Assembly (NCBI GenBank): GCA_023456995.1
Contig: JAEWNU010000141.1
Coordinates: 1-13,585 of the forward strand
DNA length: 13,585 nt
Direction of reading: 5' to 3'
Source: Bacillota bacterium
GTDB lineage: Bacteria > Bacillota > Clostridia > Oscillospirales > Ruminococcaceae
Shown here: positions 1 through 11,900 of the stretch, piece by piece
How positions within the stretch are numbered: position 1 is the stretch's first letter
Layout: each line of letters opens with the position of its first letter
Made by a program: the position numbers and the translations under genes
The notes under the pieces: generated by a model
Told to the model about the DNA's origin: nothing
Database searches by the model: none
The model's input: the letters and a program-made list of their open reading frames with translations, nothing else

Positions 1-398
1 GCAACTACCAAAGATGAAAAGCCAAAATGTAATGCTTGAAATGCGACGCCTACGGTAGCCATAAGCAGAACCAGTTCATTAGGTATAATCCTTATTTTAA
101 TATCAATTATGGTAACGAGAATTGCGAATGTAAAAAGAGATGATAGAAGGATAGCTGTCTTTATGTTTTCTAAGCGCAGTACTGTAAGGCACCATAATCC
201 AGCGTTTAGAAGGCAAACCCCAAGCTTTGTATAAGGTTTGAGATAACCAGTATCCATGCCAGGGTTTATGCCTTTTTGAAACGACTTGCGGCAAACTATC
301 TTTTGCGCTATAGCGGGGAGCAGTAGCCCGATGATTGTTCCGCCAAGACAAAAAGCAAGAGCCAATATTTTGCTAGCCAAACTAAGCCCCCATTTCAT
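1..398 (-). CDS. Prepilin peptidase (A24 family), 5' part only
   Basis: This is the N-terminal 132 residues of a membrane aspartic peptidase that would cleave the leader from type IV prepilins or pseudopilins at the inner face of the membrane; the gene leaves the window on the left. The diagnostic stretch is IDIKIRIIPNE at residues 98-108, matching the family pattern of a catalytic Asp (D99) followed by IPN/IPD. The second catalytic Asp (GxGD motif) would lie beyond the edge. Hydrophobic segments are visible at about residues 11-30, 59-74 and 82-98. The N-terminal cysteine-rich zinc segment of full-length PilD-type enzymes is absent, as in short A24 members. The ATG at 398 has no strong Shine-Dalgarno sequence. 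An in-frame ATG at 452 exists, but it lies inside the terminator hairpin, so 398 is preferred. The gene sits directly downstream of three c-di-GMP riboswitches, which suggests control by that messenger. Confidence 0.8.
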   Translation of the reverse strand, partial: MKWGLSLASKILALAFCLGGTIIGLLLPAIAQKIVCRKSFQKGINPGMDTGYLKPYTKLGVCLLNAGLWCLTVLRLENIKTAILLSSLFTFAILVTIIDIKIRIIPNELVLLMATVGVAFQALHFGFSSLVV

Positions 399-440: not shown

Positions 441-472
441 AAAAAGCTCCATTCGGGTGCACGAATAGAGCT
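441..472 (-). terminator. Terminator of riboswitch unit 3 (gene-proximal)
   Basis: On the minus strand an 11-bp stem forms between 472-462 and 455-445 with a six-base loop (456-461). All pairs form except one A-C mismatch, and the stem is followed at once by five U (445-441). It lies after the third aptamer and just before the prepilin peptidase gene, the expected place for a transcriptional expression platform. Seen directly in the sequence; function is inferred. Confidence 0.7.
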
Positions 473-473
473 C

Positions 474-495
474 AAGCATTATAATCATAACACTT
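474..495 (-). other. Linker hairpin of riboswitch unit 3
   Basis: AAGTGTTAT and ATAATGCTT on the minus strand pair over 9 bp (including G-U pairs) around the loop GATT. The same stem is kept in all three units, while the loop differs between them (GCTT, ACTT, GATT). It lies between the aptamer's P1 helix and the terminator. Confidence 0.5.
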
Positions 496-497
496 AA

Positions 498-580
498 AAC
501 AGTTCGGCAACCAGGCTGTCATAGTCATAAGACCTTAGACCCTCAGCTTTGCGTCCTTACCTTTCGGTAAGTTTGCTATT
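498..580 (-). promoter_or_regulatory. c-di-GMP-I riboswitch aptamer, unit 3
   Basis: Minus-strand RNA of 83 nt with the GEMM-I consensus in order: GCAAAC, a P2 stem CUUACC/GGUAAG closed by a GAAA tetraloop, the conserved ACGCAAAGC, a P3 arm containing GGUCUAAGG-like sequence, and the closing CUGGUUGCCGA. A P1 helix AAUAG/CUGUU bounds it. The GAAA loop is the known tertiary docking element of the class I aptamer. It differs from unit 2 at two positions. Ligand identity (cyclic di-GMP) is from the family; the residues contacting ligand appear to be kept. Confidence 0.9.
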
Positions 581-609
581 ATCGTTGTTGTTTTTTTAAT
601 TTTGGGAAT

Positions 610-642
610 AAAAAAGCCCCATTCGGCTGCACGAATAGAGCT
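610..642 (-). terminator. Terminator of riboswitch unit 2
   Basis: On the minus strand AGCTCTATTCG (642-632) pairs with CGAATGGGGCT (625-615) over 11 bp, all Watson-Crick or G-U, with a six-base loop and a following U-tract (615-610). This is the strongest of the three hairpins and is placed as a transcription-terminating expression platform for aptamer 2. Confidence 0.75.
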
Positions 643-643
643 C

Positions 644-665
644 AAGCATTATAAGTATAACACTT
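644..665 (-). other. Linker hairpin of riboswitch unit 2
   Basis: Same 9-bp AT-rich stem as in the other two units, here with loop ACTT on the minus strand, between aptamer 2 and its terminator. Preservation of the stem with a changed loop suggests a real RNA element or spacer. Confidence 0.5.
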
Positions 666-667
666 AA

Positions 668-750
668 AACAGTTCGGCAACCAGGCTGTCGTAGTCAAAA
701 GACCTTAGACCCTCAGCTTTGCGTCCTTACCTTTCGGTAAGTTTGCTATT
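668..750 (-). promoter_or_regulatory. c-di-GMP-I riboswitch aptamer, unit 2
   Basis: Second 83-nt GEMM-I aptamer on the minus strand, with GCAAAC, the GAAA-capped P2 stem, ACGCAAAGC, P3 and CUGGUUGCCGA all present. It differs from unit 1 at one position and from unit 3 at two. It is followed by its own linker hairpin and terminator, so it appears to be a complete switch and not an orphan aptamer. Confidence 0.9.
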
Positions 751-778
751 ATCGTTGTTGTTTTTTAATTTTGGGAAT

Positions 779-811
779 AAAAAATCCACATTCGTATGCA
801 CGAATAGAGCT
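779..811 (-). terminator. Terminator of riboswitch unit 1 (weaker)
   Basis: On the minus strand a perfect 6-bp stem ATTCGT/ACGAAT with loop GCAT is followed a few bases later by six U (784-779). The outer pairs that extend the stem to 11 bp in units 2 and 3 are partly lost here (several mismatches), so this terminator should be leakier. Confidence 0.6.
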
Positions 812-812
812 C

Positions 813-834
813 AAGCATTATAAGCATAACACTT
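813..834 (-). other. Linker hairpin of riboswitch unit 1
   Basis: Same 9-bp AT-rich stem as in the downstream units, here with loop GCTT, placed between aptamer 1 and its terminator on the minus strand. Confidence 0.5.
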
Positions 835-836
835 AA

Positions 837-919
837 AACAGTTCGGCAACCAGGCTGTCGTAGTCAAAAGACCTTAGACCCTCAGCTTTGCGTCCTCACC
901 TTTCGGTAAGTTTGCTATT
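837..919 (-). promoter_or_regulatory. c-di-GMP-I riboswitch aptamer, unit 1 (first transcribed)
   Basis: Promoter-proximal GEMM-I aptamer on the minus strand. GCAAAC (915-910), the P2 stem with GAAA tetraloop, ACGCAAAGC (893-885), P3 and GGUUGCCGA are all present. Its one difference from unit 2 turns an A-U pair of P2 into G-U, so the fold is kept. It begins about 100 nt after the promoter candidate at 1024-1061. Confidence 0.9.
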
Positions 920-1023
920 ATCGTTGCAAAATGCAAATTTATGTTGCTACCCTAGATTTTTAGTATTCACATTTAATCTACATTTTGATATTACTACGTA
1001 TAAATTTGCTTGTAAAGAGGTAT

Positions 1024-1061
1024 ATTATACCAATATATATGGTAAAATTATTAAATGCCAA
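1024..1061 (-). promoter_or_regulatory. Candidate promoter for the riboswitch/prepilin peptidase transcript
   Basis: On the minus strand an extended -10 (TGGTATAAT, 1032-1024) is seen. A -35-like TTGGCA (1061-1056) pairs best with an alternative -10 TATATT (1037-1032, spacer 18). The -10 sits inside the perfect palindrome GGTATA-T-TATACC (1019-1031), a possible operator. A further candidate, TTTACA-17-TAATAT, lies slightly downstream. The rest of 930-1151 is AT-rich and shows no gene and no convincing terminator after the upstream luxR-type gene, so read-through from it is possible. Confidence 0.4.
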
Positions 1062-1151: not shown

Positions 1152-2777
1152 CTAACCAAGGCGTGAACCCTCCTTGATCATATCAAGTTTCTTCATCATA
1201 TCGAGGTAAACCAACAATTCCTTGCGGGTGGACACATTGAGTTTGGCAAAAATTCGGCGGTTGTGCGTTTTAATGGTGTTAATGGAAAGACACAATTCAT
1301 CCGCAATCTCCTGTGCTCGATATCCCTTCACATAGAGATCAAAAACGCTTTTTTCTGCAGGAGAAAGCGTTTTTGCATTTTGTACAAACGCTTCAAACAT
1401 AAGGGCTGAATCGCCCTGCGGCTTTGAAAGTGTAACAGATCGATCCTTTTGGTTCTCATCCTGCTGCGCTAAAAATTCCATAAGGTCATTAATTTCCACA
1501 TAAGGGTTTTTAGCGCCGCACCCATAGTTTCTCGACTTAATTGCATTAAGACCTTCCTCCACCGGACGCAAATAGCGGCGGCTGATGAAAATAGACATCC
1601 CAAGGCTCGTGAGCAGCAGGATAATAATAATCATTAGGAGATAAGGCGTATTGCCTGTGATAGCATTTTGCAAGGTCTTTTGGTTCATCATCACCGACAC
1701 AATCCACTTTTCGCCGTTGTAGACCGAATCGGTGGGATAGAGCTTTACATCGGTATGAATACCGCCGAAGATGTTTGGCCCGCCGCTGTACAAGCAAAAC
1801 CCTTTGCTCTCTTCGGATATTTGAAGGGGCTCCGGCATGCAGGCGCTGGTTAGATAATAGTTGCCGGCGATCAGGCCCTGCTCAACATGAAACGTCCTTC
1901 CATCAGAGGGAGCGATAGCGGCAAAAATATTGGTATAGGCGCTGTTATCGGGGCTGTACTGCCGTTTAAAAAGACGATCACTTACTTCAAAACCGCACAC
2001 TCCAAACACTTCACCACTTTTGCTGCGAAGGGGAACACACAGTAGAATGCCCGATTCGCTGTTCTCCAAAAGGGTGGTACGATGGCTCCAGTGATAAAGC
2101 CTGGAAAGAGGCTGATTGGAATTTACTTTTGCCGTGTCCATCGTTTCCTGAAAAAACTTCTCACCTCGAATGTCAAATTCCATACGCCACTGCCCCATCA
2201 AGTTGATGCCGTTATCTCTTGCAATGCTGGATGGTCCTCTAAGGTAGTAAATATCCGATCCCACCGCACTTACTGCGTTGGGGTCGGTCTTTTTTAGGAA
2301 TATTCCCGCACGGGAATATTCTGCGTTTTCAAGACTGGGATTCACTGTTGCATCCAGCAGTAGGAACACGCCGCTGCATAGGTTGTATTCCATAGCCGCA
2401 GTCATAGCTTGCATCTGCGCTGCTAGAAATGGATTGATCAACTCTGGGTGTTCTTTTAGCTCCTTCGGAGATATACTGTTTTCCTTGAAAAAGCCATCGG
2501 CATTCGAGGCAATAACCTCTGAAAAGGAAACACCCTGCACAGACAGTCTGCCAAAGTTCATGGCAATATCCTCACTAATATGAGAAAGATCGCTTTGCAC
2601 AAACTGCCGCACTTCGGAAGCGCCGCTGCCCGTAATATCAAACAACAGGAGCAAAGAAACGAACAGCAGAATGACCGCCGCCCCTGACATAGCAAAAAAA
2701 GCGAAGAGCCTGCGTTGCAGGTGGGTTCCCTTATGTTTTCGTTCCCGCATCCAGAGTGCAATTGCTTGTCGAAACAT
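1152..2777 (-). CDS. Membrane-anchored one-component regulator: Cache-like sensor plus LuxR-type HTH
   Basis: A protein of about 541 residues that probably senses a ligand outside the cell and binds DNA inside. From the N-terminus it has a first membrane segment (around GAAVILLFVSLLLLF), a large outer region with features of a double-Cache fold (CSGVFLLLDATVN; VFGVCGFEVSDRLF), a second membrane segment (LLMIIIILLLTSLGMSIFI), a short HAMP-like linker (SRRYLRPVEEGLNAI), and a C-terminal GerE/LuxR HTH of about 55 residues beginning LSPAEKSVFDLYVKGY and including SINTIKTHNRRIFAKLNV. No receiver domain is present, so it is a one-component sensor. The start at 2777 has GGAG five bases upstream; an in-frame ATG at 2804 has no ribosome site. 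It lies 37 bp after the solute-binding gene, probably in one transcript. DNA targets are unknown; candidates are its own operon and the adjacent pilin peptidase locus. Confidence 0.85.
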   Translation of the reverse strand: MFRQAIALWMRERKHKGTHLQRRLFAFFAMSGAAVILLFVSLLLLFDITGSGASEVRQFVQSDLSHISEDIAMNFGRLSVQGVSFSEVIASNADGFFKENSISPKELKEHPELINPFLAAQMQAMTAAMEYNLCSGVFLLLDATVNPSLENAEYSRAGIFLKKTDPNAVSAVGSDIYYLRGPSSIARDNGINLMGQWRMEFDIRGEKFFQETMDTAKVNSNQPLSRLYHWSHRTTLLENSESGILLCVPLRSKSGEVFGVCGFEVSDRLFKRQYSPDNSAYTNIFAAIAPSDGRTFHVEQGLIAGNYYLTSACMPEPLQISEESKGFCLYSGGPNIFGGIHTDVKLYPTDSVYNGEKWIVSVMMNQKTLQNAITGNTPYLLMIIIILLLTSLGMSIFISRRYLRPVEEGLNAIKSRNYGCGAKNPYVEINDLMEFLAQQDENQKDRSVTLSKPQGDSALMFEAFVQNAKTLSPAEKSVFDLYVKGYRAQEIADELCLSINTIKTHNRRIFAKLNVSTRKELLVYLDMMKKLDMIKEGSRLG

Positions 2778-2814
2778 ATTCACTCCGTGCCCCTTCCTGT
2801 CCATGACGTCATTA

Positions 2815-4194
2815 CTACTTGCTCATCTTTTTTTGTGCCTCTCTGGGAGAAAGCTCGCCGCTATTTAAGTACCGTTCACGTTCAATGGCCATCAGCGCTT
2901 TGAAGTCTTTTTCATATTCTTTGCTGATGCTGTCAAAGCCTTCAAAAATGGGTGGTGTAAAAAAGCTGTAGTTCTCATACATGGAGTTGACCGCCGCCAG
3001 CATTTTCTTGATGCGGGTATCCTCCACGCCCTCCATGTGGCTTTTCATATCTTGTTCAAAAGCCTGCACCGTTACCGGCAGATATCCGGTGGAGGCTATA
3101 AAGCGCATATTTTGTGCCGGCGCAGTGAGCCATTTGAGAAACTGCACCGCTGCATATTCCCTCTTTTCCTCGGTCTTGGCTACCATGAAGCCGCCTCCGC
3201 GCTGAATGGCTGTTTTGGTTCCCCCTTTAAAGACCGGATAAGGTAGAATGCTGTATTCCACCTGCTCCACCCGGTTGTCCGGATAGGTAATGGTATCTCC
3301 GTAAAACAGAATCCCCGCCGACGAGCCGGTGGAGCAGACAAGGTCTCCTGTTTTAGAAAGGTCGGAGGAATATCCGTCATAGATCGCAATGCCCCCCTTA
3401 ACCGCTGGCGTGTAAAGCGTTTCGAATATATGGGCATATGCAGTGCCGCTACAATCTATTTGATAATTGTTGGCTTCGTTGCTGCCTGTTTCTGAAACAA
3501 TCAGGCTCTCGCCAAGCTGTTTCATGCCCACTTGTGCCATATTGAACCATGAATCAGAGGCATAAAACTGCTTGCCGTCGCCTTTTATCTCGGGCGTTTT
3601 CTTGTCAGTCCATTCATAATACATCTGCGACAGCTCACAGAGGCCTTCCATCGTATCAAACTGCTCCATTTAGGCACCCGTTTCTGCGGCAAACCGGTCA
3701 AACAGAGTTTGATTTAAGTAAAGAATCTCGGTGGATTTTGCCATCGGGAATACATAGAGCCCATTATCAAAACGCCCCTCGTCAATAAATGCTGGTATGT
3801 AAGCGGCAAGCTCATCCTTAGTAAAATACCCCTCCAAATCTGCCAGCATTCCTTTGTTGACAAAGCTGATGGCAACCTTGGGATAAGCGGTACAGATATC
3901 GGGCATGGCAGGTGCGCCAGGGTCGCCGCTGACAATCATTTTAAGACTTTCATTCAGCTCCGAGCTTGAGGCTATTGCGGTGACATTGATAACAATGCCT
4001 TGATCCTTACCTACGGTACTGTTGAATTCGTCAATCAGCAAATCCATGGTCTGCTGCATATCCCCACCATAGTTGTGCCACATGTTGAGGGTGACGGGAC
4101 TTTTGGGGCTTGGTTTTTCGTTGCTCCCACAGCCAGCAAGCGCCACGCAGATCAAACCAAAACTTAAAAAAAGGGATAATATTTTGCTCTTCAT
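2815..4194 (-). pseudogene. ABC-type extracellular solute-binding lipoprotein, interrupted by an in-frame TAA
   Basis: Family 1 (sugar-type) solute-binding protein, about 458 residues in total. The ATG at 4194 follows GGGAGG by seven bases; an in-frame ATG at 4215 has no such site. A lipoprotein signal ends in ALAGC, followed by TLNMWHNYGG, typical of the mature N-terminus, and later by family-like segments (FPMAKSTEILYLNQTLFDR, GGGFMVAKTEEKREYAAVQ, STGYLPV). Codon 175 is TAA (3672-3670), directly followed in the same frame by ATG and by well-conserved family sequence (MEGLCELSQMYYEWTDKKTP). The upstream half would be exported but incomplete, and the downstream half lacks a signal peptide. 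It could be a recent pseudogene, a sequencing error, or, less likely, read-through. No permease or ATPase genes lie nearby, and the linked sensor gene suggests a ligand-presenting role. Confidence 0.8.
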
Positions 4195-4242
4195 TTTGCT
4201 TCCTCCCCGCTTCAAAATATAACTGAGTTAAATTCTGCAAAT

Positions 4243-4372: not shown

Positions 4373-4400
4373 ATTATAGCACGAAATGCAACTAAATCAA
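4373..4400 (-). promoter_or_regulatory. Candidate promoter for the solute-binding/luxR-type unit
   Basis: On the minus strand TTGATT (4400-4395) is followed after 16 bp by TATAAT (4378-4373), with the extended -10 element TGC directly before it. This would give a leader of about 170 nt to the start at 4194. Together with the plus-strand candidate at 4294-4322, the two transcripts would overlap at their 5' ends by some tens of bases. Confidence 0.5.
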
Positions 4401-4462
4401 TGTTGTTACTTGCTCCTTACAATTGGTCGTTCAAACAAAAAACTAGTAAAGGAGGGCGCAAT

Positions 4463-4621
4463 ATGGTGGAGCCTGTAGCGAAACTCACAGGAAAAAACAT
4501 CGAAAAAGTAGCGAGCATAGACAAAGCGCAATTAGAAGTACCTCTGAAAGCAATTCTCACATGCAAATGTTTTCTCCCTAAAGGGATAACAAAGGGGATG
4601 CGGGATGATGGCGGACACTGA
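4463..4621 (+). CDS. Small protein of unknown function, first gene of the operon
   Basis: A 52-residue protein that I do not recognise. The start is supported by a strong AAAGGAGGG site six bases upstream (4448-4456); an in-frame ATG at 4400 lacks one. The sequence is mixed-charge (MVEPVAKLTGKNIEKV...) with one CxC (TCKCF) near residue 35 and no signal peptide or membrane segment. Its end overlaps the next gene by 17 bp in another frame, which suggests translational coupling. It may instead be a remnant of a longer N-terminal domain of the following gene, separated by a frameshift. Confidence 0.5.
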   Translation: MVEPVAKLTGKNIEKVASIDKAQLEVPLKAILTCKCFLPKGITKGMRDDGGH

Positions 4622-4898
4622 GCGTGATTTCACATCCAAAAGCACCATGCTCTTTGAAAATGGCGCTTATCGTTTTCACTTTGCCTGTGAGTTATGCGAC
4701 AACGGCTATACCACAGGAAAAATCGTATCGGACACAGTGGCTGAAGCCCTTGTAATTGCCCGAATGGAGGCTCGCCCCCACTTTAACTGTTGCCACAAAT
4801 GCCACCATTGGATCTGTGATGATCACTACAACATTGATGAAATGATGTGCGTTTCATGCGCACCATTGCGTAATCAAACAAATAAAGCTGATAAATGA
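4605..4898 (+). CDS. Small cysteine-rich zinc-binding protein, paralogue of the protein at 6617
   Basis: A 97-residue protein, probably cytoplasmic, with cysteines in the order CELC (28-31), CCHKCHHWIC (62-71) and CVSCAP (82-87), enough for two zinc sites. It aligns over most of its length with residues 10-136 of the protein at 6617 (shared FxFxCxxCxxGY near the start; HFxxCHxCHxWxCDxxxNxxExxCVxCAP at the end). The larger protein has an extra segment in the middle and three zinc ribbons after it. The start at 4605 follows AAAGGGG by seven bases; ATG 4608 is an alternative. No characterised function is known to me. Its place in the operon suggests work alongside the other zinc proteins. Confidence 0.75.
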   Translation: MMADTERDFTSKSTMLFENGAYRFHFACELCDNGYTTGKIVSDTVAEALVIARMEARPHFNCCHKCHHWICDDHYNIDEMMCVSCAPLRNQTNKADK

Positions 4899-4911
4899 AT
4901 TGGAGGTTCTT

Positions 4912-5751
4912 ATGAAAAAACTACTCTTATACTTGCTGGCACTAACACTCGCGCTTTCCCTTACGGCCTGCTCAGGTGGTGGCAATCCTGCATCCGCCCA
5001 ACAAAGCAGCAAGCCCTCCCCCAGTGCTCCGGAGCAGAGCAAATCCGCAGCACCCGAAAGTAAAGCATCCCTCTCTGCGCCTGAACTACTTTCCTCAACC
5101 TATGTTGACATCATGAAAGACGGCAGGTTCTATATGCGTTATATCGCTACTGTTACCACCGATGAAGGGGATTTTGAAAGTGAAATTGCTACCGCTACGG
5201 ATGGAGAGACCGTCGCCAACATCATGGACACAATGGGGATTAAGATGCGAACCTTAGTAAAGGATGGCAGTTTCTATCAAATTGACGATGCGTCTAAGAC
5301 GTATATGAAGCTTGACATACCTGAGATGCAGATGGACACGGGACTCACCGAAACTGAGGATCTTGTTTATCTTGGGAGCGGCACAGATTCTGTAAACGGA
5401 AAAGTTCTGCCCTATGAAGAATATCAAGTCAGCGACGGCACAATACGCTTTTACATGGATAATAAAAGCCTCTATGCCCTCGTCATCAAAACCGCCGATG
5501 GGGATATGACCATGCTTGTGCTGGAAATCAGCGACAAAATTCCCGCCGGAATGCTTGAGCTGCAAGCCGACTACAAGGAAACCGCCATGCCTTCCTTCGC
5601 CGCTGGCATCGAGATGGATGAAGAAACCAAGCGAGAGCTGGAGGAACTGCAAAAAGAGTTCGGCGACATGAGCCCCGAGGAAATTCAAAAGCAAGCCGAG
5701 GAGGCAATGCGGCAAGCTGGTATCGACCCCCAAAATCTTCCGACTAATTGA
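4912..5751 (+). CDS. LolA/LppX-like surface lipoprotein
   Basis: A 279-residue lipoprotein. The signal peptide is MKKLLLYLLALTLALSLTAC with lipobox LTAC (C20), followed by a low-complexity Ser/Ala/Pro/Lys tether to about residue 55. The rest alternates short strands (SSTYVDIMKDGRFYMRYIAT; ETVANIMDTMGIKMRTLVKDGSFYQIDD), which resembles the open beta-barrel folds of LolA-like or DUF6612-type lipoproteins; this is a fold guess, not a firm assignment. The C-terminus is an acidic amphipathic helix (EETKRELEELQKEFGDMSPEEI). The start at 4912 has GGAGGT six bases upstream; the in-frame TTG at 4900 lies in this site. It is spaced 13 bp after the previous gene and would be anchored to the outer membrane face. 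Confidence 0.7.
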   Translation: MKKLLLYLLALTLALSLTACSGGGNPASAQQSSKPSPSAPEQSKSAAPESKASLSAPELLSSTYVDIMKDGRFYMRYIATVTTDEGDFESEIATATDGETVANIMDTMGIKMRTLVKDGSFYQIDDASKTYMKLDIPEMQMDTGLTETEDLVYLGSGTDSVNGKVLPYEEYQVSDGTIRFYMDNKSLYALVIKTADGDMTMLVLEISDKIPAGMLELQADYKETAMPSFAAGIEMDEETKRELEELQKEFGDMSPEEIQKQAEEAMRQAGIDPQNLPTN

Positions 5752-5812
5752 TTTTTTGATGGACCCTAGGATTAGAACGCAAAGCAAGAATGATTTACAG
5801 GAGGGGGTTTCT

Positions 5813-6268
5813 ATGGATAATCTCTATCAACCGCACAAATCGTCCATCGGAGGACTTAACGCCAACGTGGTAGCAATGCTTAGCTACATCGCCTCGGTGG
5901 TTGTCGGCTGGATACCCGTCATTCGCTATCTCGCATGGCTGGTACCACTGGTGATTTTCTTCATGGAAAAAGACAGTAAATTTATCAAGTTTCATGCCAT
6001 GCAGTCCTTTTTGCTCCATGTGTTCGGAGCGGGGCTCAGCTTTCTGGTGTTGGCGGTATCGGGCGGGCTCGTTGGTGTGTCAATGCTAAACTCCTATACC
6101 TTTTCTGCGGCGCTAGGTGCAGCAGGTATTTTGGGCTTGCTCGTTACCGTTATCGCGCTTGCTATGACGGTTTTTGCAGTCATAGCAATGATAAAAGCTT
6201 ATGGCTACAAGGAATATTACATTCCTGTGGTTGGCAGCCTTGCCGTCAGATTCACAGGTCAAAGGTAG
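5813..6268 (+). CDS. DUF4870-type integral membrane protein
   Basis: A 151-residue membrane protein with about four helices: residues 17-32 and 36-50, a pair at about 67-90, and about 100-130. The family signature is FFMEKDSKFIKFHAMQSFLL (49-68), the acidic-basic loop and HAMQS motif typical of DUF4870/Tic20-like proteins, followed by a C-terminal KAYGYKEYYIPVVG. The biochemical role of the family is not established. The start at 5813 follows CAGGAGGGGG; an in-frame ATG at 5756 has no site. The 61 bases before it (5752-5812) hold no terminator. It is the only polytopic protein in the operon and so the natural membrane hub between the zinc-ribbon proteins inside and the lipoproteins outside (inference). 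Confidence 0.8.
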   Translation: MDNLYQPHKSSIGGLNANVVAMLSYIASVVVGWIPVIRYLAWLVPLVIFFMEKDSKFIKFHAMQSFLLHVFGAGLSFLVLAVSGGLVGVSMLNSYTFSAALGAAGILGLLVTVIALAMTVFAVIAMIKAYGYKEYYIPVVGSLAVRFTGQR

Positions 6269-6275
6269 GTGGCGG

Positions 6276-6602
6276 ATGATGGCAAGTTATAAACAGCCCT
6301 GTAAGCACTGTGGTACATTCATAGAGCGTGACAGCCGTTTTTGCCCAAAATGCGGCAACAGGAGTCCTTTTGTAGATCTGTGCCCCACTTGCCTGCGGGA
6401 GGTTCGCCGAGAAAACGCCGTCTGCTCGGGTTGCGGCAGACCGTTGTACATCACCTGCCCCAAATGTAAGCAGCAAACTTTTGCAGGTGAACAGTGCGAT
6501 GCTTGTCGTGTAAGTCTGCTTAAGCCATGCCAAAACCCACGCTGTGGTGAGATGCAGTTTTTTGAAAACACAAAATGCACCGCTTGCGGCAAAAAATTAT
6601 AG
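6276..6602 (+). CDS. Zinc-ribbon array protein (four ribbons, eight CxxC-type knuckles)
   Basis: A 108-residue cytoplasmic-type protein made almost wholly of zinc ribbons. Cysteine pairs lie at residues 9/12 with 23/26, 36/39 with 50/53, 61/64 with 74/77, and 85/90 (a CxxxxC variant, CQNPRC) with 101/104. It belongs broadly with double-zinc-ribbon (DZR) proteins. It ends CTACGKKL, the same kind of tail as three other proteins of the operon. The start at 6276 follows GGTGG, and 6279 is an equal alternative. The previous gene's stop lies just 7 bp before it. Such arrays may bind protein or nucleic acid; no partner can be named from sequence. Confidence 0.8.
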   Translation: MMASYKQPCKHCGTFIERDSRFCPKCGNRSPFVDLCPTCLREVRRENAVCSGCGRPLYITCPKCKQQTFAGEQCDACRVSLLKPCQNPRCGEMQFFENTKCTACGKKL

Positions 6603-6616
6603 GAAGGAATGGTCAT

Positions 6617-7369
6617 ATGCTCAAAGCATTTACACGCAATTATGAAGATAACTCCACCGAAGTCGGTTTCCAGTTTACCTTTTATTGCGACATCTGCCAG
6701 GATGGCTACAAAACCAGCTTTGTGGAGTCAGAAACCAGTAAGAAAAACGCTAAAATCCGAGGAATCGGACAGGGCATTTGGGCGGTAAGTAACCTTTTTG
6801 GCGGTGCGCTCGGCAATGTCGGATGGGCGGTAGAGCGCGGCAGCGATGTGCTCTCGGAGCGGTTTAACGGGATGAGCGCCGAATGGCAAAAGGAACATGA
6901 GGCTGCTTTTAATCGTGCGCAGAACGAGGCACAACAGCATTTTCACCGTTGCCACGCCTGTCACAAATGGGTGTGTGATGCAGACTTTAACGAGGATGAG
7001 GGGTTGTGCGTCGAGTGTGCCCCCCGCCAAGAAATTTATGTGGCTAAGGCAAGGGCATCCGCAATGCAGCGAAATCTGGATGAAGCGGCCGACACCGCCA
7101 CCGTTTGGTCGGGAAAGCTTGAAAGCAAAACCACCGTCTGCCCCGTCTGCGGAAAACCTGCCGGCACCGGCAAATTTTGCAGCAACTGCGGCGCTTCCAT
7201 GTCGCTTGTCAAATGTCCCAAGTGCGGCAAGGAAAACGCGCGCGAGGTTCGATTCTGTAATAACTGCGGCAGCTCAATGACCGCGCCTATAGTGGCAAAA
7301 TGTCCCGCCTGTGGTGCGGAAAATGCGCCCGGCACCAAATTCTGCGGCGAATGCGGCCGAAAGTTGTAG
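6617..7369 (+). CDS. Cysteine-rich domain plus three C-terminal zinc ribbons
   Basis: A 250-residue protein. Residues 16-136 match the 97-residue protein at 4605 (CDIC 24-27; CHACHKWVC 112-120; CVECAPR 131-137), but here they contain an insertion at about residues 46-100. The insertion has a Gly-rich, amphipathic-looking stretch (IGQGIWAVSNLFGGALGNV) that could touch a membrane. A helical linker (about 138-165) follows, then three zinc ribbons: C175/178-C188/191, C200/203-C214/217 and C229/232-C243/246, the last ending CGECGRKL. The start at 6617 has GGAAGGAA upstream; the gene begins 14 bp after the previous stop. Cytoplasmic, with no signal peptide. Function unknown; it may be an adaptor whose ribbons pair with those of its neighbours. 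Confidence 0.8.
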   Translation: MLKAFTRNYEDNSTEVGFQFTFYCDICQDGYKTSFVESETSKKNAKIRGIGQGIWAVSNLFGGALGNVGWAVERGSDVLSERFNGMSAEWQKEHEAAFNRAQNEAQQHFHRCHACHKWVCDADFNEDEGLCVECAPRQEIYVAKARASAMQRNLDEAADTATVWSGKLESKTTVCPVCGKPAGTGKFCSNCGASMSLVKCPKCGKENAREVRFCNNCGSSMTAPIVAKCPACGAENAPGTKFCGECGRKL

Positions 7370-7382
7370 GAGGGCTGACACG

Positions 7383-7838
7383 ATGACTAGCGATATTTTA
7401 GGCGGTCTTTTTAAGGGCCTCAGTAATTTTATGCCTCCGGATGATCCAGATACAAAAATCTTTTCGGCAACAAACGCCCTAAGCGAGCTACAGCAGCAGG
7501 AAGAACAAGTTTATGCAACGCTGGGGAAAAGAGTTTTTCCCACAATTCGTGACAGTGCTGACTATGCCGATCTACTGGAAGAATTGCGCGTGGTGCAAAA
7601 AAAACTAGTTGAGGCAAAAGAAAAGCTACAGGCAGCGCAGGCTGCCAAAAAAGTTGCCGAGCAGGAGTTCATGGACTGTATCTGCCCCAGCTGCGGAGAA
7701 GAAAATTCTGTCGGTACAAAGTTTTGTCAAAATTGCGGAACACGGCTGGGCGGAGCCGCTCTTATTTGTCAAAGCTGCGGCACCAAAAACAAGGCTGACA
7801 CCCGCTTTTGCGTGGAATGCGGAACCAAACTGTCATAG
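7383..7838 (+). CDS. Coiled-coil protein with two C-terminal zinc ribbons
   Basis: A 151-residue protein. Residues 28-98 form a helical, probably coiled-coil region (SELQQQEEQVYATLGKR; LLEELRVVQKKLVEAKEKLQ). Two zinc ribbons follow: C101/104-C115/118 and C129/132-C143/146, ending CVECGTKLS. The helical part with the YATLGKRVF segment resembles the protein at 8522 (KGKIGLFYWEKYL), and such zinc-ribbon/coiled-coil proteins are common in Clostridia without known function. The start at 7383 follows AGGAGGG; 13 bp separate it from the previous stop. No signal peptide, so cytoplasmic. Confidence 0.8.
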   Translation: MTSDILGGLFKGLSNFMPPDDPDTKIFSATNALSELQQQEEQVYATLGKRVFPTIRDSADYADLLEELRVVQKKLVEAKEKLQAAQAAKKVAEQEFMDCICPSCGEENSVGTKFCQNCGTRLGGAALICQSCGTKNKADTRFCVECGTKLS

Positions 7839-7898
7839 AAAAATGAATTTCCTTTTTTAGATAAAAACTTGCTTTGTAAAATGTTTAGGAGGGATTTT

Positions 7899-8489
7899 TT
7901 GAAGAGATATATGCTGCTATTTCTTACATTTATAATCGCTGTTTTGCTCTGCGCTTGTGCGCAGAACGGGGCTGCCAATATTACAGCAGCTTCTCACGCT
8001 CCGACGTCCAGCAACAGTACTACTGCGGCAACATCCCGTCAGACAGAATCTGTACAAAGTCAAACAAAAGACAGCAAAAATCAAGAGGTGACGATTCAGA
8101 TTTCTCCCCCTGAGGGCTGGACTCCGATAGAAGGTTCCGTTTTGCCTGTACATTACATGAAAAATACTGCCAGTGTGATGGTGAAAGCCGAACCTTTTAC
8201 AAGCGGCACACTGGATGAAGTCGTTAACGAAGCGCTCGAAATTTACCGAAAAACATTTGATAATGTTATCACCGCCGGGAACGTTGAAACAATTACGGTC
8301 GACAGCAAAGAGGCAAAAAAGCTGATGTTCACCTGCACGGTTAGCAAACTAGAGATGAAATATCTCTACGTTTATCTGTTCGCGGAAGGCAAAACTTATG
8401 TCATTACATTTGGCGATTCTGCAAGCACTTTCGATTCTCTTTCGTCCGACTTCGAAACAATTTTAAGCAATATTAAATTCAAAGCATAA
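7899..8489 (+). CDS. Small lipoprotein with TTG start, PsbP/DcrB-like fold guess
   Basis: A 196-residue lipoprotein. AGGAGGG (7887-7893) stands five bases before TTG at 7899, which makes this the likely start; the nearest in-frame downstream ATG (7911) is too far from the site, and upstream ATGs overlap or precede it. The signal peptide (KRYMLLFLTFIIAVLLCAC) ends in a lipobox-like LCAC with C20. A Ser/Thr/Ala-rich tether runs to about residue 60. The domain that follows begins EVTIQISPPEGWTPIEG and ends in a strand/helix pattern like PsbP/DcrB-type proteins (fold inference only). The 60 bases before it (7839-7898) hold no clear terminator, so it is probably co-transcribed with its neighbours. 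Confidence 0.7.
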   Translation: MKRYMLLFLTFIIAVLLCACAQNGAANITAASHAPTSSNSTTAATSRQTESVQSQTKDSKNQEVTIQISPPEGWTPIEGSVLPVHYMKNTASVMVKAEPFTSGTLDEVVNEALEIYRKTFDNVITAGNVETITVDSKEAKKLMFTCTVSKLEMKYLYVYLFAEGKTYVITFGDSASTFDSLSSDFETILSNIKFKA

Positions 8490-8521
8490 TAACATTGCAA
8501 AACAGAAAGAGAGTAATCAAC

Positions 8522-8911
8522 ATGGCGAATTTTTTAAATAAACTTAGCGAGATGGCAAAAACCGCCGCTGATAAAACTGGCGACATGATCGAGACTGGCA
8601 AGCTGAATGCCAAGATAAGTTCGGAAGAAGACGGCATTACAGATTTGAAGGGTAAAATTGGCCTCTTCTATTGGGAGAAATACTTGTCAACCAAAACTGC
8701 CGATGCGCAAATTTTGGAATGGTGCGAGGCAATCCAAGCCGCACAAGAGCGTATAGAAGCTACACGAACCGAAATTCAGTTACTCAAAGAGCAAAAGCCG
8801 ATAAACTCCGCTCCCATTGCTCTTCAGGACGCTACTTCCAAATGTCCCGCCTGCGGCACGGAAAATGGAGTTGGGACCAAGTTTTGCTCTCAGTGCGGTA
8901 ATAAGCTATAA
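8522..8911 (+). CDS. Coiled-coil protein with one C-terminal zinc ribbon
   Basis: A 129-residue protein of a type common in Clostridia. An N-terminal amphipathic helix (NFLNKLSEMAKTAADKTGDM) leads to a helical domain with KIGLFYWEKYL (45-55) and a coiled coil (AIQAAQERIEATRTEIQLLK), then a flexible linker and a zinc ribbon C108/111-C122/125 ending CSQCGNKL. It is related in layout to the protein at 7383. The start at 8522 has only a weak site (GAGAG) upstream; an in-frame ATG at 8495 is possible but has no ribosome site. Cytoplasmic; function unknown. Confidence 0.75.
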   Translation: MANFLNKLSEMAKTAADKTGDMIETGKLNAKISSEEDGITDLKGKIGLFYWEKYLSTKTADAQILEWCEAIQAAQERIEATRTEIQLLKEQKPINSAPIALQDATSKCPACGTENGVGTKFCSQCGNKL

Positions 8912-8935: not shown

Positions 8936-11900
8936 ATGAGAAACAAAAAACGCTGTCTGTCTGTATTTCTCGCGGCCTGTATGGTTATTTCTCTGCTGCC
9001 AGGCTGCGATAAAAAGGGCGCGGATGACACGAGCCAAGCGCCTTCCACTGCACCGGACAGCGCGGTCGCACTTTCCGGAATCAAAAAAGGCCCCGCCGAT
9101 GGCATTGGTGAGGCTGGTAAAGATTTTGTGATGCTCAAAACCGGCAATGCAGATGACTGGCAAAGCGTTCCCGTTCCAAAGTTTAATCCGCTTGGCGCCT
9201 TTTCCCTGTATGACGAAGTGCAATACATAGGAACAGATTTGGAACCGGTTACCTTTTACACGCTGGATGGCTACACCGAAAAGCGGGAAAATTTGACGGG
9301 CGAACGCTGGGTACTTTCCATCGCTAACCCCGATTATTCTCTTAATTGGCTAAGGTGGTATACCCGCGAGGCAGGTGGACAGTGGTTTCCCGGTACGCGC
9401 GATCATTCTACCTTCGCTATAAAAGAAAATGACACGGTAACTTGGTGGGCCGATGCAAATCAGATTGACGGTGGCGTAGAAATTACGGTCGTTAATGTGA
9501 ACACACTCCCAATTGGCAAACCACTCACCCTGCGCCCTGCTGAGCTTTCGGGCAATGCCTATATCTTTTACACCGCTCCTACCAACGGAAAGCTGCAATC
9601 GGCGGCCATCACATTAAAAGGCGCGGATGACAGCGGTGTTGGCTTGGAGGTTAGCAGTGCCGCCAGATGGAGCGGATTCAGCTACGAAACCCAACTGTCC
9701 GTTTGGGATACCAACCTCAACAGAAAGAAAACTGACCGCTTTGTGCTGGACGATCTGCCAATTACCGAAGGCCCTCTCTGTTGGAAAATGACCTGGGGTG
9801 AAAATGTCTCGGTTCCCGATGAAATCAGTGTTACACTCAGCACAGTGGCAGACATCACGCCTGTTAAATGGGGTGAAGCGCCGGGGGGCATTCGTGTTGT
9901 CGGTGTGCCTATGGATTCAGCAAGCGTATTGACCCCCAGGTGGGCAAATGTCACGCACCGCGCGGTTTCTGTAGTCGATAAGGAACTTAACGGCGTTACC
10001 GACCAGAACGGCGACTTGTTCTTCTCTGCTCCCGCTGGATACTACAATCTGCTAATCGGCTCAGGGGTCTCCGACTCACCAAATATCCTGCGGCTGATAC
10101 CGGTGAATGCGGGCGAAATTACCACAGTCACCATTCCTCCCGAGGCTGCTGCAGCAGCGGGCGCGTTATCTCGATTTTATGGCGATTTTGACGCCAACGA
10201 GGGCGGGATAGAACTGCTTAGCGGCAAAACTGAAGGAGAACAAGCGGTAATATCCTTTGTTCTTAACGACCCTCTTGAGCGGAATATCGCACTGCAAAAG
10301 GAGGATATTTCTATTACTGAGGAAGGCGCAAATGCGACTGTTCTCAAAGTGGAGCGTGAGCTTGCGGGAAGCGATGTTGTGCTGGTGCTGGACTCCTCCG
10401 GTTCCATGGGCGAAAACATGAAACCCTGCGTGGCAGCGGCTCAGCGATTTGTTGAGAGTCTGCCCGAAAACTCCTCCATCTGTTTGATACAGTTTGCACA
10501 GGATATTACTGTCCACCCGGGAAGCGACAAGGCCAGTGCTTTAAAAGCACTTTCCACTGTAAAAGAGGGCGGTGCGACCGCGTTATATGACGCCACGGCA
10601 CAAGCACTTACGCTGCTCAATGGCAAAAAGCGTGGCTACGCTGTGGTCTTTTCGGACGGTGCGGACAGCCGTGAGCCGGGGGTGGATGGTGAGGGCAGTA
10701 CAACTACCAAAGAAGAAATTATTGAACAGATTGCGACGAGCGGCGTAACGGTACTCACCATCGGATTCGGGCAGGGGCACGACCCATCCACGCTGATTGC
10801 TATGAGTGCGTCTTCTAAAAACGGCGGATATTTTGCCGTTTCCGATAAAGATGCTCTTGAAGGGGCTTTTGCTTCAATATCTGGTCAATTTGGCAATCAA
10901 TATACTGTAACTTATCAGCGCCCTACCATTCCCGTGGATCAGAGCGGTACCGTGCCGGTTATCTCGATGATGCTTGACCGTTCCGGTTCGATGGACACCG
11001 ACCCCGCTGAGAGCGAAAACGTAGGCTGGCGGTTGGATAAGGTCAAGGAGATGTTTCACAACTTTATTCTGCAGATGCCGGACAACGCGCTGATGCAGTT
11101 GGGCAGTTTCGCCGAGCCTGAGGGCGGAGAATTCCCCCGTTTTGATCAGCTTACCTCCGACAGAAAAGCAAACTTTTTGCAAGCGCTGGGAAGCCTAGAG
11201 GCGGGCGGTGGCACCCCCACCCAATATGCGCTCATGCTTGCTCATTCAAATCTGGCTCCCATCCCTTCTCAAAAGAGAGTTCTGATTTTCTTTACCGATG
11301 CCGCCCTTTACGACTTAGAAAATCCTGAGGAACTGGATGAGGTTCTTTTGATGCTGAAACAATCCGGCATTCGGGTACTATTTGCGGGGCTTGCCGATGA
11401 TCCGAACAATGCCGAGCTGGATACTATATTCAAAACAGCGGCTGAGAAAGCGGGTGGCGGCTACATTCTGACCAACAGCATAGAGGAAATTGATAAAAAA
11501 CTACGAGAACTGATTGACAAAATCGATATCCCTACACCGAAGAAGGGCGTCAACATTACCCTTAATGTCGACTGCAAGACTGGTGTCAACAAAGGGCTAA
11601 ACTTCTGTACGACAGAAAATTTTGCAGACTTTTCACCCAAGACCGCCCCAGGCAAACAGCTTAACCCGCAGGTTGTAACCTGTAAAACGGGCGAGCGCTA
11701 TTCCATCTACAACGGTGGGGCAGCAAAGCTTCTATACGGCGGAGATCAACCCGTCACACAGAGTAACGTTCTAATGCGGATGCCTTTTGAAAACAAACAG
11801 GGCAACAATAAATTTGGCAAGTTAACTGTTTCTGAAGCATATTTAATGGATATTTTCAAGGGCATTCCCGCGCCAGAAGGGCAGGTTTACCTTGCGCTAA

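Follow-up and report, generated by a model that had tools for sequence, protein, structure and literature searches.

What would three riboswitch-like elements in series do ahead of a putative prepilin peptidase gene: what would they sense, would they act as equals, and would their ligand turn the gene on or off? The question is raised by the minus strand of the 13,585-nt stretch of DNA analysed here (the window), in which a first-pass annotation had read three c-di-GMP-I riboswitches and for which it had proposed an Infernal search with RF01051 as a check. By cmscan against Rfam 15, this search yielded three significant full-length minus-strand matches to RF01051 (c-di-GMP-I), all covering model positions 1-87 and scoring 82.2-85.8 bits against a gathering score of 35 bits, confirming that all three aptamers are there in series; with every copy 47-51 bits over the gathering score, chance matches were ruled out. 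The copies were numbered RS1, RS2 and RS3 in transcription order (Table 1). The places given earlier (837-919, 668-750 and 498-580) had marked the right elements but were about 5 nt off. Both the P2 GAAA tetraloop and the A just 3′ of P2, the ligand-stacking base (A41 in PMC6274999; numbering transferred in this analysis), are present in the RF01051 alignments of the window aptamers. As a triple-tandem riboswitch, the array has three complete aptamers and a weak RS1 platform. A snoR35 match at 10845-10925 was under its gathering score (E 0.55) and was discarded as chance.

The copies are closely similar. Units one and two span 169 and 170 nt, and per 85 sites the aptamers differ at 1 (RS1/RS2), 2 (RS2/RS3) and 3 (RS1/RS3); the linker hairpins differ between copies at 1 or 2 of 31 sites and the terminators at 3 to 6 of 32 sites, while the tail of RS3 extends into the gene and departs from the other two tails at 13 and 14 of 22 sites. 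Judged from these alignments, sensor and platform have been duplicated together in tandem. An assembly artefact from a single copy is unlikely, because the differences between copies lie at scattered sites. No viral contig matched an exact pattern built on a 55-position stretch of the unit, and a distant blastn of 441-960 against plasmids gave four records with aptamer-size matches, no single place covering 80% of the query.

Table 1. Features of the riboswitch array and neighbouring genes in the window, array copies in transcription order
Feature	Positions	Strand	Remarks
Candidate sigma-70 promoter	1032-1061	-	TTGGCA-18-TATATT, 10/12 matches
RS1 aptamer, first copy (5′-most)	842-926	-	RF01051 82.2 bits, E 2.5e-15
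RS1 antiterminator 5′ half	842-851	-	strand like GGUUGCCGAA
RS1 linker hairpin	about 811-836	-	like that of RS2; from folds, coordinates reckoned from unit positions
RS1 terminator-like hairpin, then U-run	783-812	-	2/12 stem positions mispaired
RS2 aptamer, second copy	673-757	-	RF01051 84.1 bits, E 8.5e-16
RS2 antiterminator 5′ half, last ten aptamer bases	673-682	-	GGUUGCCGAA; pairs with 625-635
RS2 linker hairpin	642-667	-	11 pairs, between aptamer and terminator; from folds, coordinates reckoned from unit positions
RS2 intrinsic terminator, U-tract	614-643	-	12 pairs; terminator scan
RS3 aptamer, third copy, closest to gene	503-587	-	RF01051 85.8 bits, E 3.3e-16
RS3 antiterminator 5′ half	503-512	-	strand like GGUUGCCGAA
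RS3 linker hairpin	about 472-497	-	like that of RS2; from folds, coordinates reckoned from unit positions
RS3 intrinsic terminator, U-tract	444-473	-	12 pairs; terminator scan
A24 prepilin peptidase gene	3-398	-	start ATG 398 or TTG 380; 3′ end past window edge
LuxR-type protein gene	1152-2804	-	upstream of array
SBP_bac_8 solute-binding protein gene	2815-4215	-	in-frame stop 3670-3672 splits it
Run of small genes	4400-8911	+	
Very large VWA-domain protein gene	8936 to window end	+	after small-gene run

The gene after the array had been called a prepilin peptidase, and this call stood: the piece within the window scores 24.6 bits against Peptidase_A24 (cut-off 26.5; profile positions 3-43 of 104), and P0001, a full-length relative 94% identical to it, scores 48.9 bits. 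Two further relatives, P0002 and P0003, start at the alignment column of TTG 380. In Caproiciproducens galactitolivorans (locus L004), the genes after a homologue 33% identical to the window's peptidase encode two TadE proteins, RcpC/CpaB, a ParA-like ATPase, a T2SSE ATPase and two T2SSF proteins (Pfam), and by eye loci L001 and L002 have a like gene order. By its gene content, the L004 set is a Tad (type IVc) pilus operon with the peptidase at its head; the window ends within the peptidase, and the Tad gene order is known from relatives only.

Upstream of the array, the LuxR-type gene encodes a protein of 550 aa, which carries a LuxR-type DNA-binding domain at its C-terminus; its N-terminal part is long and, by eye, looks membrane-bound. 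The two pieces of the split solute-binding protein match positions 3-105 and 113-267 of the 279-position SBP_bac_8 profile. In the plus-strand run of small genes, several products look by eye as if they have CxxC zinc-ribbon tails (6575-7369 was the one tested); the run also encodes a DUF4870 membrane protein and two lipoprotein-like proteins.

A terminator-like hairpin had been described after each aptamer, which was strongly borne out for RS2 and RS3; at RS1 a hairpin and U-run are present but weak, with a best hairpin energy of −6.0 kcal/mol versus −15.5 and −16.4 kcal/mol in the other two copies. The RS1 hairpin was absent from both the terminator scan of positions 1-1300 and the list made by a −8 kcal/mol rule. 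The scan returned four sites versus 1.1 ± 1.0 in shuffles, and two of the four, on the plus strand, are aptamer hairpins read backwards. The RS2 and RS3 terminators begin 29 nt beyond the aptamer. Sigma-70-like sites, such as the candidate promoter of Table 1, numbered five versus 3.8 ± 2.2 in shuffles and so were not above chance.

Between aptamer and terminator an alternative pairing can be drawn in every copy. All ten positions of the RS2 aptamer 3′ strand can pair with 625-635, i.e. the end of the terminator 5′ arm plus the loop, which would form the antiterminator 3′ half, with one bulged base and a duplex energy of −15.0 kcal/mol; nine of ten positions pair in RS3 (one mismatch) and eight of ten in RS1 (two mismatches). 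Each copy's pairing beats shuffles only weakly, being equalled per 1000 shuffles by 118 and 40 for RS1, 50 and 38 for RS2, and 164 and 157 for RS3. A permutation set was assembled by trying 73 aptamers, 56 of which have a terminator by the rule used (RS1 has none by it); the mean pairing with the own terminator was −9.82, whereas swapped terminators averaged −9.16. Of 20000 permutations, 252 did as well (485 for the 54 aptamers outside the window), a figure that is flattering given the near-duplicate loci in the set.

In the fold model, enforcing the aptamer raised the terminator share of RS2 from 0.11 to 0.78, and the shares of RS1 and RS3 went from 0.14 to 0.24 and from 0.90 to 0.91, respectively; there is thus no equilibrium switching in RS3 and hardly any in RS1, and RS2 is predicted to be the sole balanced switch. 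RS2 changed in the same direction at 25 °C (0.37 to 0.65), at 55 °C (0.19 to 0.85) and with the Turner 1999 parameters (0.01 to 0.87); the Andronescu and Langdon parameter sets gave the Turner 1999 numbers and were left out as support. When the whole leader was folded, the free terminator shares were 0.23, 0.04 and 0.88 for RS1, RS2 and RS3, respectively. At a transcript length of 134, before the terminator 3′ arm is completed, the free RNA is mostly antiterminator (RS1 0.86, RS2 0.99, RS3 0.90), so that RS3 might yet switch kinetically. When the aptamer is enforced at this length, antiterminator pairing beyond the aptamer persists (0.59-0.74), and the fold model is therefore not cleanly two-state.

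Eight platforms of relatives, lying before the peptidase gene or its cluster, were folded likewise. The only clear rise was in L021_a, from 0.33 to 0.95 with the aptamer enforced; L023_b went from 0.76 to 0.85, and six of the eight stayed within 0.02, several of the relatives' aptamer constraints being minimum-energy folds that miss the Rfam structure, which makes this a poor test either way. Only for L023_a was the pairing rarely equalled by shuffles (1 and 2 of 1000).

We consider it fairly probable that the three tandem-duplicated c-di-GMP-I riboswitches form the leader of a Tad-type prepilin peptidase gene and act, like Cd1, as OFF switches by transcription termination. Without ligand, the aptamer 3′ strand, which would contain the ligand-pairing base, would pair with the tip of the terminator 5′ arm and the loop, and the polymerase would read through; with ligand, this strand would be locked inside the aptamer, the terminator would form and transcription would stop. 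Copy 1 would be leaky, copy 2 a balanced switch, and copy 3 would terminate strongly unless the antiterminator wins during RNA synthesis. High c-di-GMP would then lower pilin processing and Tad pilus assembly. The first-pass annotation gave no regulatory sign; the anatomy points to OFF. Cd1 is an OFF switch whose terminator coexists with the aptamer and whose antiterminator captures the ligand-pairing C87 (PMC9262584), and the class I switches of C. difficile are described as transcriptional OFF switches (PMC11477304); by analogy, the resemblance of the window's layout to Cd1 lends the OFF sign modest support. Equal strength of the three serial switches is unlikely, because the RS1 terminator is weak and the RS3 fold does not change when the aptamer is enforced.

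The same inequality could mean instead that the array is a recent tandem duplication of little functional meaning, with one working copy and the others drifting. The few differences between aptamers and the weak RS1 terminator would suit such drift, but all three aptamers have kept full RF01051 scores, and tandem pairs recur before the peptidase gene elsewhere. This recurrence emerged from 20 of 60 fetched peptidase loci, mostly the best-scoring, whose leaders were scanned for RF01051 and its sister family RF03167: matches upstream of the peptidase were found in four, one in L018 and two each in L020 (the C. galactitolivorans locus again), L021 and L023, whereas the match in L050 lies downstream of the peptidase and the other 15 loci had none. 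In 33 peptidase-matching genomes of the same order, 53 RF01051 matches make up 47 loci, and the aptamers are in tandem at 3 of the 4 loci before a peptidase versus 2 of the other 43 (Fisher P 0.0024), a post hoc comparison of four or five loci in which L021 and L023 are assigned by the peptidase alone. Genome G247 has a single aptamer 1013 bases ahead of a second, distant peptidase match, and counting it as linked gives P 0.0058. We therefore regard mere drift as unlikely.

Elsewhere among these relatives, L002 and L003 have one aptamer further upstream, before another gene, which in L002 matches a crescentin rod profile far below cut-off. At L018 (1206-1455) two terminator-like hairpins lie between the single aptamer and the peptidase gene; two terminators have been ascribed to Bc1 as well (PMC11218506). 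By eye, the 61 relatives of G001 hold at least five doublets and no triplet among the matches listed.

The opposite sign has a direct precedent. Bc3-5, the sole tested triple c-di-GMP-I array that we found, is an ON array of very similar units about 160 nt apart (PMC4759541), and class II ON switches control the C. difficile type IV pilus cluster (PMC11477304). Were the window array of this kind, ligand would prevent termination, and read-through would need all three aptamers occupied, giving tight digital control. Against this, the Bc4 terminator is proposed to use aptamer bases (PMC4759541), whereas the RS2 and RS3 terminators can form beside the aptamer; moreover, enforcing the aptamer raised the terminator share or left it unchanged in all three copies. 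An ON array is accordingly rather unlikely, and OFF control by termination stays the preferred reading. The first-pass expectation that serial switches would sharpen the c-di-GMP response fits the behaviour of Bc3-5, yet Bc3-5 is an ON array (PMC4759541).

The ligand had been named as c-di-GMP. Just 5′ of P2, at model position 11, each window copy has A where the RF01051 consensus is G. We take this position to be Vc2 G20, in keeping with the layout in PMC6274999. In 49 other distinct aptamers, obtained by a motif search of fetched loci that misses other P2 lengths, it is G in 35, A in 11, T in 2 and C in 1, so that G is typical of c-di-GMP-I but not required, the base varying within the family. 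All 11 other A-type aptamers (L002, L003, L006, L012, L018, L023, L078, L083, L086, L138 and L156) read AAUAGCAAA, exactly the context of the window copies, and this common context suggests a coherent subtype in Clostridia. One of them, L138 (G247:C1:1665452-1665538, minus), lies about 1 kb upstream of a distant A24 match at 1663987-1664439.

An array sensing 3′,3′-cGAMP (c-AMP-GMP) rather than c-di-GMP was weighed on this ground, since A at the choice base, as expected of cGAMP riboswitches (GEMM-Ib), is found in all three copies. The corresponding base of the cGAMP riboswitch is A14, which closes the strand leading into P2, and a class I aptamer with the G20A change binds cGAMP (PMC6274999); in a Desulfobacca aptamer, a changed key ligand-contact base goes with a c-AMP-GMP affinity markedly above that of its homologues (PMC9481103). 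However, Cd1 tolerated A or C in place of its equivalent base, G11, without a large effect (PMC9262584), and the same A recurs, always within AAUAGCAAA, in the 11 of 49 aptamers above. The enzymes of relatives also lean against cGAMP. From 104 GGDEF matches in nine relatives, 30 loci were fetched, and all 24 domains readable by pattern carry Asp, like ordinary diguanylate cyclases, and none carries Ser, at what we presume to be the place of the Ser within the motif; the three GGDEF domains of G003, which has an A-type aptamer, were all unreadable by the pattern. A GGDEF enzyme with Ser in place of Asp (Hypr) makes cGAMP (PMC6456294). The ligand is probably c-di-GMP, but less certainly than first stated, because all copies have A at the base that guides the choice of cyclic dinucleotide; cGAMP as the ligand is improbable. 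More improbable still is a Clostridia AAUAGCAAA subtype, with the three window copies among its members, whose preference has shifted to cGAMP or to both cyclic dinucleotides, the window's array then being a graded three-step OFF gate on Tad pilus expression.

Triple class I arrays are already known, and the points of interest here are the target, the unequal platforms and the A at the choice base. Their rarity, claimed in the first-pass annotation, agrees with a survey of 12 triplet and 347 doublet c-di-GMP-I arrays (PMC9481103), and a 2025 survey lists triplets as well (PMC12452182). No report of a class I switch before a Tad operon was found among the open-licence papers listed: the text of PMC9481103 has no pilus, prepilin or Tad as whole words and uses 'pili' in another context only, the main text of PMC12452182 is without Flp, pilus, prepilin, pili, CpaB or peptidase, and the accessible part of PMC6916266 mentions riboswitches in its reference list only. 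The window adds one triplet to the short list, with a pilus target, and the loci of relatives suggest a recurring placement of tandem class I switches ahead of Tad-type peptidase genes in Clostridia. An OFF sign, if true, would run counter to the class II ON control seen for C. difficile type IV pili. With near-identical aptamers and differing terminators, the array is also a natural series that varies mainly the expression platform.

Several known systems share parts of this arrangement. The surveyed triplets and doublets (PMC9481103) have the same class and architecture. The L004 doublet (7691-7777 and 7833-7918) is likewise class I and directly before an A24 peptidase, and both of its copies allow pairing between the aptamer 3′ strand and the terminator tip (154-242 of 1000 shuffles as good); unlike the window, it has two copies 142 nt apart with T at the choice base, and its terminator share is unchanged by enforcing the aptamer. 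The G247 triplet (C1:1432528-1432919, minus; about 1500-1930 of L161, reverse strand), one of the two tandem loci not before a peptidase, also has three class I aptamers, and its first two terminators carry a GCAGCC tip as in RS2, but its third aptamer lies near the gene start, without a terminator by eye, and the downstream gene encodes a beta-helix, pectate-lyase-like protein. Two units with terminators and a third aptamer just before the gene start make this a leader of mixed platforms.

The crystallised form of the cGAMP riboswitch has A at the choice base, as in the window, and the pilM riboswitch of Geobacter metallireducens (GEMM-Ib) is linked to pili, but is ON (PMC9262584, PMC6274999). 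In Bc3-5 of Bacillus thuringiensis, as in the window, three complete and closely alike class I copies follow one another; there they are treated as independent elements and give control that is tighter and more digital than that of doublets and singles. Bc3-5 is ON, stands before cspABCDE and has a terminator proposed to use aptamer bases (PMC4759541), whereas the window array is OFF-like and stands before a prepilin peptidase. Cd1 of Clostridioides difficile shares with the window a separate terminator, a further hairpin (HP1) and, as predicted for the window, an antiterminator taking the ligand-pairing C; it precedes flagellar genes and has G at the choice base (G11; PMC9262584), where the window has A.
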